From NCBI GenBank assembly GCA_019055375.1, contig JAHQIW010006941.1, forward strand, positions 1-64,000: DNA of 64,000 nt, in the 5' to 3' direction. A program made the position numbers and the translations under genes. Positions 47,012 to 47,860 of this stretch are shown piece after piece. This DNA is from Parelaphostrongylus tenuis (lineage: Eukaryota > Nematoda > Chromadorea > Rhabditida > Metastrongylidae). Every line of letters begins with the position of its first letter. Position 1 is the stretch's first letter. The notes below the pieces were generated by a model, which saw nothing but the letters and a program-made list of their open reading frames with translations, was not told where the DNA came from and searched no databases.

Positions 47012-47860
47012 TTCTAATTACCCAAGTTTGAGTGGCTGGCGACGACATCAGAAGCTCGTGGGGACGAGCTCTCGCCTGAAAGCTGCCGCAGTGCATTCAG
47101 CCCCACATCCAAAAATTATAGTACGTTTTCTGTGGTGTGCGCATCAGTTCGGGAGAACTACTATGTGGTTCCTGTTAGAGAGACTCAAATGGTGATCTTG
47201 AAGCGGTACGAAAGACTTCGACTAATTGGTTTTGGAGCGCAAGGCATTGTCTGTTCTGCCACGGATACGGTTAGCAACAAGCCAGTTGCTATCAAAAAAA
47301 TGTCGCGACCCTTCCAAAATGTTATTCACGCCAAGAGAGCTTATAAAGAGAGAGTTTATCTTAATGAATTTAGTTAACCACAAAAACATTATTGGTTTAC
47401 TCAATGCATTTTCTCCACAGAAAGATGTAGAAGGGTTTACTAATCTTTATATTGTTATGAAGCTCATGGACGCTAATCTGTGTCAGGTCATACAGATGGA
47501 TCTAGATCATGAGCGACTTTCCCACTTGTTATATCAAATGTTGTGCGGAATCAAATTTTTCATAGCGCAGGAATTATTCACAGATACTCAAAACTATCAG
47601 ATATTGTAGTCAAAAGCGATTGTACGCTCAAAATATTGGACTTTGGAGCCGCCCGAGCAGCTGTTGAAGCTTTTATGATGATTCCCTACATTGTTACTCG
47701 TTATTACCGTGCTCCTGAGGTCATTTTGGGAATGGGATTTGGCGAAAATTTCGATGTATGCTCAGTCGGGTGTATATCCAGCGAACTGATTCGGGGACGA
47801 GATTTATTCCGTGGTGCCGATCATTTAGATCAGTGGGCAAAGATTATTGAACGCAGTTAA
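47012..47860 (+). pseudogene. JNK-type MAP kinase retrocopy (processed pseudogene) with SL1 leader
   Basis: Forward frames encode a c-Jun N-terminal kinase homologue without introns over about 240 residues. The glycine-rich loop is [12 protein letters not shown] near 47231. [12 protein letters not shown] at 47285 has the ATP-binding Lys. [15 protein letters not shown] and [19 protein letters not shown] follow, then [29 protein letters not shown] replaces the catalytic HRD with HRY. DFGAAR, then [20 protein letters not shown] has the dual-phosphorylation TPY changed to IPY. The match stops at DQWAKIIE (about 47855), so the last third of the kinase is missing. Frameshifts occur near 47345 and 47560. 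The frame is open upstream from the SL1 junction to the kinase start but begins without ATG (CTG at the expected place). Inactive as a kinase; it could still be transcribed. Confidence 0.9.
47015..47032 (+). other. SL1 spliced-leader sequence at the 5' end of the retrocopy
   Basis: TAATTACCCAAGTTTGAG is an exact match to the 3' 18 nt of the 22-nt nematode SL1 leader; of the remaining four bases only one matches. The kinase 5' region follows at once in the orientation expected after trans-splicing. Chance occurrence of an 18-mer in a 64-kb window is negligible. Confidence 0.85.

Follow-up and report, generated by a model that had tools for sequence, protein, structure and literature searches.

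A JNK retrocopy tagged with the SL1 spliced leader in the nematode Parelaphostrongylus tenuis

The DinoSL-tagged retrogenes of dinoflagellates, as presented in the available text of PMC6050394 and PMC12014239, are a close precedent for the locus described here. Within the nematodes, the available part of a survey of Caenorhabditis retrocopies ties chimeric copies to trans-splicing (PMC3532220). The available text on Cer1, an LTR element of C. elegans, reports spliced mRNA both with and without SL1 (PMC3315495). Among the matches listed in a literature search, titles and abstract openings described no nematode retrocopy that carries a leader. Here we analyse a kinase copy in a 64-kb window (the whole stretch of P. 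tenuis DNA under study, 64,000 nt). This copy is a real, well-supported leader-tagged retrocopy of jnk-1 and a pseudogene. More broadly, it is of interest as one of several leader-tagged copies in the same genome.

Leader, kinase and parent gene

An SL1 leader scar occupies 47011–47032 on the plus strand. Eighteen of the 22 nt of SL1 are exact (47015–47032), and the 5′ bases GGTT are replaced by TTTC. The scar is the sole SL1-like site in the window at up to three mismatches in 22, and none of 100 window shuffles gave a site at this threshold. Across the 481.5-Mb genome the SL1 18-mer occurs 147 times (56 + 91), and a reversed control does not occur at all. The mismatch search, the shuffles and the reversed control thus bear out the 18-nt exact match reported in the initial annotation. 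The continuous frame from SL1 into the kinase that it described is likewise present, as an open frame (47018–47377) that runs through the leader. The best PDB matches of the kinase piece are MAPK9 and MAPK10, both JNK (best E 5.3e-20). Pfam Pkinase matches all three kinase pieces, with two of the matches short of the cut-off that Pfam sets, and the best protein match is Necator americanus JNK at 81% identity; the three kinds of match agree with the JNK-like kinase domain first proposed.

A protein search of the organism's own genome (481.5 Mb in 5105 contigs) found one intron-bearing jnk-1 gene, on contig C3194, and three intronless copies, namely the window copy and those on C2727 and C3956. 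All three stop at about residue 320 of the Necator protein. On C3194, acceptor and donor sites flank parental exons A to 7, and the copies of these exons follow one another on the plus strand of the window. The copy of exon A lies at 47033–47115 (parent C3194:196144–196226) and that of exon 2 at 47116–47253 (parent 201849–201986), where the parental ATG of MASTSVPENYY has become GTG. Exon 3 is represented at 47254–47387 (parent 202045–202174), with a frameshift, and exon 4 at 47388–47486 (parent 202325–202423, followed there by a GC donor). The copy of exon 5, at 47487–47584 (parent 202759–202857), holds a second frameshift, and that of exon 6, at 47585–47750 (parent 203463–203628), holds two altered kinase motifs (see below). 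The first part of exon 7 lies at 47751–47850 (parent 203907–204006). The window copy lacks all six parental introns between exons A and 7 and so is intronless, as claimed, against a parent that has introns. In the window and C2727 copies no base is gained or lost at any of the six exon joins; the C3956 copy has 3-nt deletions at or within 3 nt of two joins. Identity to the spliced parent is 735/816 aligned bases in the window (∼90%), 732/813 in C2727 and 732/799 in C3956.

The scar ends at 47032, at the exact start of the copy of exon A (‘WLATT...’), the parental acceptor of which is TTTCAG. In the parent, exon A is preceded by AATTTCAG, whereas in the copies that exon's first base comes straight after SL1; the scar is present in the C2727 copy, and the C3956 copy has TTTATTTACCCAAGTCTGAG. 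The 801 bases read around exon A in the parent contain no SL1 match at up to three mismatches. The copy therefore carries, at the parental acceptor, a sequence added only to RNA, and the spliced 5′ part of the parental mRNA comes directly after the leader. The parental acceptor CAAATTTCAG does resemble the last SL1 bases, and one might imagine a chance match or a degenerate acceptor, next to a kinase copy whose introns disappeared in some other way. We give this idea almost no weight: it is already contradicted by the parental acceptor, which has no SL1 match, by the shuffles, by the absence of reversed-pattern matches genome-wide, and by the same join in two unrelated genes (see below). The retroposition of a mature, SL1-bearing kinase message, as first claimed, is strongly supported by the parental introns, the junction at a 3′ splice site, the loss of all six introns and the lack of SL1 in the parental bases.

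The junction also bears on the isoforms of the parent. The long isoform P0001 reads ‘...FIDSVSQ/WLATTSG’ across into exon A, and the exon that ends in SVSQ lies 6.2 kb upstream, with a GT donor at C3194:189973. Since this donor joins the long form to exon A, the exon A acceptor serves two isoforms; it is an internal acceptor that, judging by the scar, also received SL1. The scar points to an internal trans-splice site of jnk-1, and so to an alternative short isoform. The CTG beside the leader was initially thought to mark the parental start codon, which would have lain within a few bases of SL1. We reject this placement, as the CTG encodes the Leu of WLATTSG, in the interior of the long isoform. 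No ATG occurs in exon A; a message bearing the leader has its first ATG in exon 2 (MASTSVPENYY...), 99 nt downstream of SL1. Predicted short forms start at this ATG (e.g. P0004, P0005 and P0018), and it is still intact in the C3956 copy.

The window copy lacks the open frame with HRD and TPY of a functional JNK kinase. Its frame changes twice, at ∼47340 and ∼47550. The catalytic HRD motif reads HRY, and the TPY motif reads IPY, with the Asp and the Thr replaced as the initial annotation had stated. With its frameshifts, HRY, IPY and changes spread evenly over codon positions, the window copy is a pseudogene. Similarity to jnk-1 stops mid-exon 7 at ∼47850, so that the copy extends to the message's 5′ end and lacks its 3′ part; the usual LINE pattern is the reverse. 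The 3′ end has no poly(A) tract of the kind expected of a LINE-type processed pseudogene. The suggested search for a target-site duplication around the insert gave no exact direct repeat of at least 8 nt between 46981–47036 and 47821–48520, and age may have erased such a duplication.

Landing place and duplication of the copy

The kinase copy is flanked by exons of an Argonaute-like gene. The penultimate exon, which encodes the C-terminal part of the Piwi domain, lies at 46594–46802 on the plus strand. It has a frame change near its start and is followed by a GTAAGT-type donor; Pfam Piwi matches 46611–46802 with an E of 8.7e-14. Three paralogous copies and further relatives occur in the genome. 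The probable last exon (48057–48179, plus strand) is placed by its position and by the Argonaute paralogue on C2359, and its open frames have no Pfam match. The C2359 paralogue aligns to 46711–46909 and to 47938–48190, not to the piece between, and C2359 is not among the kinase matches of the genome protein search. The Piwi exon, the last exon and the kinase-free paralogue thus place the kinase copy, in sense, in the last intron of the Argonaute-like gene. A dispersed repeat lies in the same intron 3′ of the kinase copy (47872–48014, plus strand), with at least 35 partial matches elsewhere at 73–86% identity, a lower bound from 40 of 265 candidates scored.

Several other features of the region were recorded. 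A very abundant repeat, which on inspection looks tRNA-like, is represented by pieces on either side of the segment (46345–46469 and 48293–48506); the 48-nt direct repeats at 46422–46469 and 48293–48340 belong to this repeat and not to the insertion. C2359 has two inverted Argonaute-like copies (159282–161864 and 171131–173715) with ends ∼9 kb apart, either a palindrome or an assembly effect. Elsewhere in the window, three tRNA-Gly(GCC) genes lie within ∼250 bp (23283–23535), two on the plus strand and one on the minus strand.

The SL1/exon A junction, the 3′ truncation and the flanks are common to the C2727 and C3956 copies. Window 46593–48506 matches C2727 at 93%, and window 46923–48295 matches C3956 at 86%, with ∼5.3 kb between the two matching parts in C3956. 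C2727 and C3956 share another 1.5 kb beyond the left border of the window match at 90%, an extent limited by the flank compared. We considered a 1.9-kb mobile unit carrying the kinase and dropped it, given this further leftward similarity and the identity of the flanks as Argonaute exons. Because the three loci have common flanks, one retroposition followed by duplication is indicated. Three independent retropositions of one message would also leave three intronless copies, but they are contradicted by the Argonaute-intron flanks on both sides and by the common 3′ truncation, and we regard them as hardly credible.

The three copies were compared at 795 positions. At 19 of these every copy departs from the parent, and 14 of the 19 are third codon positions, a pattern compatible with change on the parent's own line. 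Changes on the lines of the copies fall on codon positions 1/2/3 as 12/9/9 in the window, 7/11/9 in C2727, 10/12/9 in the window and C2727 together, and 16/15/13 in C3956, a neutral pattern. The comparison suggests that selection acted on the parent line and not on the copies, and that duplication probably came soon after retroposition.

We consider it very probable that a spliced jnk-1 message with SL1 at exon A gave rise to all three loci. A jnk-1 transcript would have started inside the long intron, trans-splicing would have attached SL1 at the 3′ splice site in front of exon A, and six further introns would have been removed by cis-splicing. The mature message would then have been reverse transcribed up to the leader, and a 3′-truncated copy would have entered the last intron of the Argonaute-like gene in sense. 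Duplication of this segment would subsequently have produced the three loci, in which the kinase copies would have decayed without constraint.

SL1 elsewhere in the genome

One hundred of the 147 SL1 places were listed, and of these 100, 35 belong to a tandem array on C3131. A single unit of the array consists of SL1, GTACTT, the Sm-like AATTTTGG and a terminal 3′ hairpin; by this anatomy of leader, GT, Sm-like site and hairpin it is a putative SL1 RNA gene. Rfam gave no match for this unit (L093). Judged from its sequence, SL1 is this genome's own leader. The first 30 of the 100 listed places (L001–L030) served as a sample, with the 35 array places outside it.

Seventeen of the 30 sampled places fall into three groups (8, 7 and 2 members) with common sequence up to SL1. 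L006 and L015 share a common dispersed repeat that ends some bases before SL1 and was not counted as LTR. In the first of the three groups, the one examined for LTR structure, a repeat of ∼855 bp runs from TGTCGAT to CACTACA. Five-bp target duplications are present at L021 (CATTA), L023 (TTCTT) and the pair L029/L030 (GTTAA); L024 and L026 did not display the TGTCGAT repeat start. The LTR-like repeats of this group contain a TATAAAGG-like box, then the whole SL1, then donor-like GTAATC. In L021, L023, L024, L026, L029 and L030, SL1 lies at 1501–1518 of the sequence read, in match orientation. At least four pairs of SL1 places ∼9 kb apart occur among the places listed, of which the C1532 pair was read. 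Because 17 of 30 sampled sites carry common, LTR-like upstream sequence, SL1 in DNA is not by itself proof of retroposition, and the initial view of it as direct evidence fails.

L002 has an ORF with DUF1759 (Pfam), a domain of Pao-type elements; the ORF tested in L030 has no Pfam match, nor do L003, L012 and L019 in the frames tried. At L002:602–1327 (minus strand) and upstream, the usual U3 is followed by SL1, a leader unlike the usual U5 and the DUF1759 ORF. L002 looks like the product of a spliced element RNA that returned to DNA and acquired a U3 again. L013 has only the downstream part in common with L002.

Five of the 30 sampled places have protein evidence for host genes, and a further seven (L003, L012, L014, L016, L019, L022 and L027) belong neither to these five nor to the groups with common upstream sequence. 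L006 matches Pfam FAA_hydrolase (1.5e-12; ‘FAHD1-like’ is our own label), L015 matches VPS28 (1.9e-12) ∼330 nt after SL1, L018 matches CG6151-P (1.8e-17), presumably the Flower family, and L005 matches RPB5 (2.5e-15). L001 shows a weak bL35m match (0.0035 in PDB) and no Pfam match. Parents were sought for L006 and L018, and both were found, with introns. The L006 parent on C3319 has four matching exon blocks covering 24–439 of the 754 bases given, and the L018 parent on C4779 has three blocks at 98–100% identity. At L006 the parent reads ATGTTCCAG then CGAATAGCC, where the copy reads SL1 then CAATAGCC, with one base lost; at L018 the parent reads GTTATTTCAG then ATCAACGATGGG, and the copy SL1 then ATCAACGATGGG. 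In both copies SL1 gives way to gene sequence at the parental acceptor, and the introns are absent. The SL1-tagged FAHD1-like retrocopy spans L006:1497–2250. The Flower-like retrocopy (L018:1–381, minus strand) is very young and has a near-identical second copy, 99% identical, at C4028:8097–8474. A fusion of LTR sequence to L018 was considered and dropped: L029 is the 3′ LTR of its pair, so the stretch common to L018 and L029 is flanking DNA and not element. L005, L015 and L001 are candidate SL1-tagged copies on present sequence. With two further leader-tagged intronless copies confirmed and three candidates, the earlier opinion that such scars are rarely preserved is doubtful.

The SL1-bearing LTRs suggest another source for the leader of the kinase copy. 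An LTR with built-in SL1 and a donor, sitting in the jnk-1 intron, could have given a transcript in which cis-splicing joined the SL1 of the LTR to exon A, and that RNA would then have been retroposed. The genome's LTRs do carry SL1 followed by donor-like GTAATC, and the RNA product would be identical. We nonetheless think this route very unlikely. The 801 parental bases read around exon A, which take in part of the 6.2-kb intron, have no SL1 at up to three mismatches, and the 444 bases upstream of exon A have no match to the 17 LTR-like loci. Moreover, the FAHD1-like and Flower-like copies are joined in the same way at their own acceptors, so that an LTR would be needed at each parent. Trans-splicing of SL1 to the jnk-1 acceptor thus remains the reading that we prefer.

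A further conjecture, which we rate as unlikely, concerns the elements themselves. BEL/Pao-like LTR elements may carry SL1 at the start of their transcript, in the R region, and SL1 may channel host messages into retroposition. An SL1-capped host message would then begin with the same sequence as the element, and cDNA made from it could jump onto the element's U3; if true, SL1 could hand retroposed host messages a promoter. L002 has the appearance of a product of this U3–SL1 route, made from spliced RNA of the element itself. The kinase copy has no U3, and window 46593–47014 has no match to the 17 LTR-like loci.

Comparison with described systems

Retrocopies mediated by LTR elements are typically truncated and lack a poly(A) tail or LINE-type duplication. 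The window copy resembles them in all of these features, and differs in that 46593–47014 is unlike the genome's 17 LTR-like loci. Cer1 is likewise an LTR element associated with SL1, although in the available text it gets SL1 on RNA, at an acceptor, whereas the LTRs described here have SL1 in DNA (PMC3315495). Titles and abstract openings among the matches listed in our literature search described no SL1 inside LTR DNA, and the word ‘SL1’ does not occur in PMC9094657 or PMC3118150; SL1 in LTRs may already be in print.

The Caenorhabditis retrocopies are, like the window copy, intronless mRNA-derived nematode duplicates. Unlike the window copy, none is described with a leader scar in the available text of the survey, from which the words ‘SL1’ and ‘leader’ are absent (PMC3532220). 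A leader found on RNA alone marks retroposition cleanly, without reference to introns. With several marks of this kind in a single nematode genome, retrocopies could be counted, dated and traced to their source isoforms, as in dinoflagellates, once SL1-bearing LTRs are removed. The likeness to the DinoSL retrogenes is close: in both, genomic DNA retains a spliced leader in front of a gene copy that derives from mRNA (PMC6050394, PMC12014239, available text). In dinoflagellates, as far as that text goes, this is a mass phenomenon with many surviving genes, whereas here the host is a nematode, the leader is SL1 and the kinase copy is dead.
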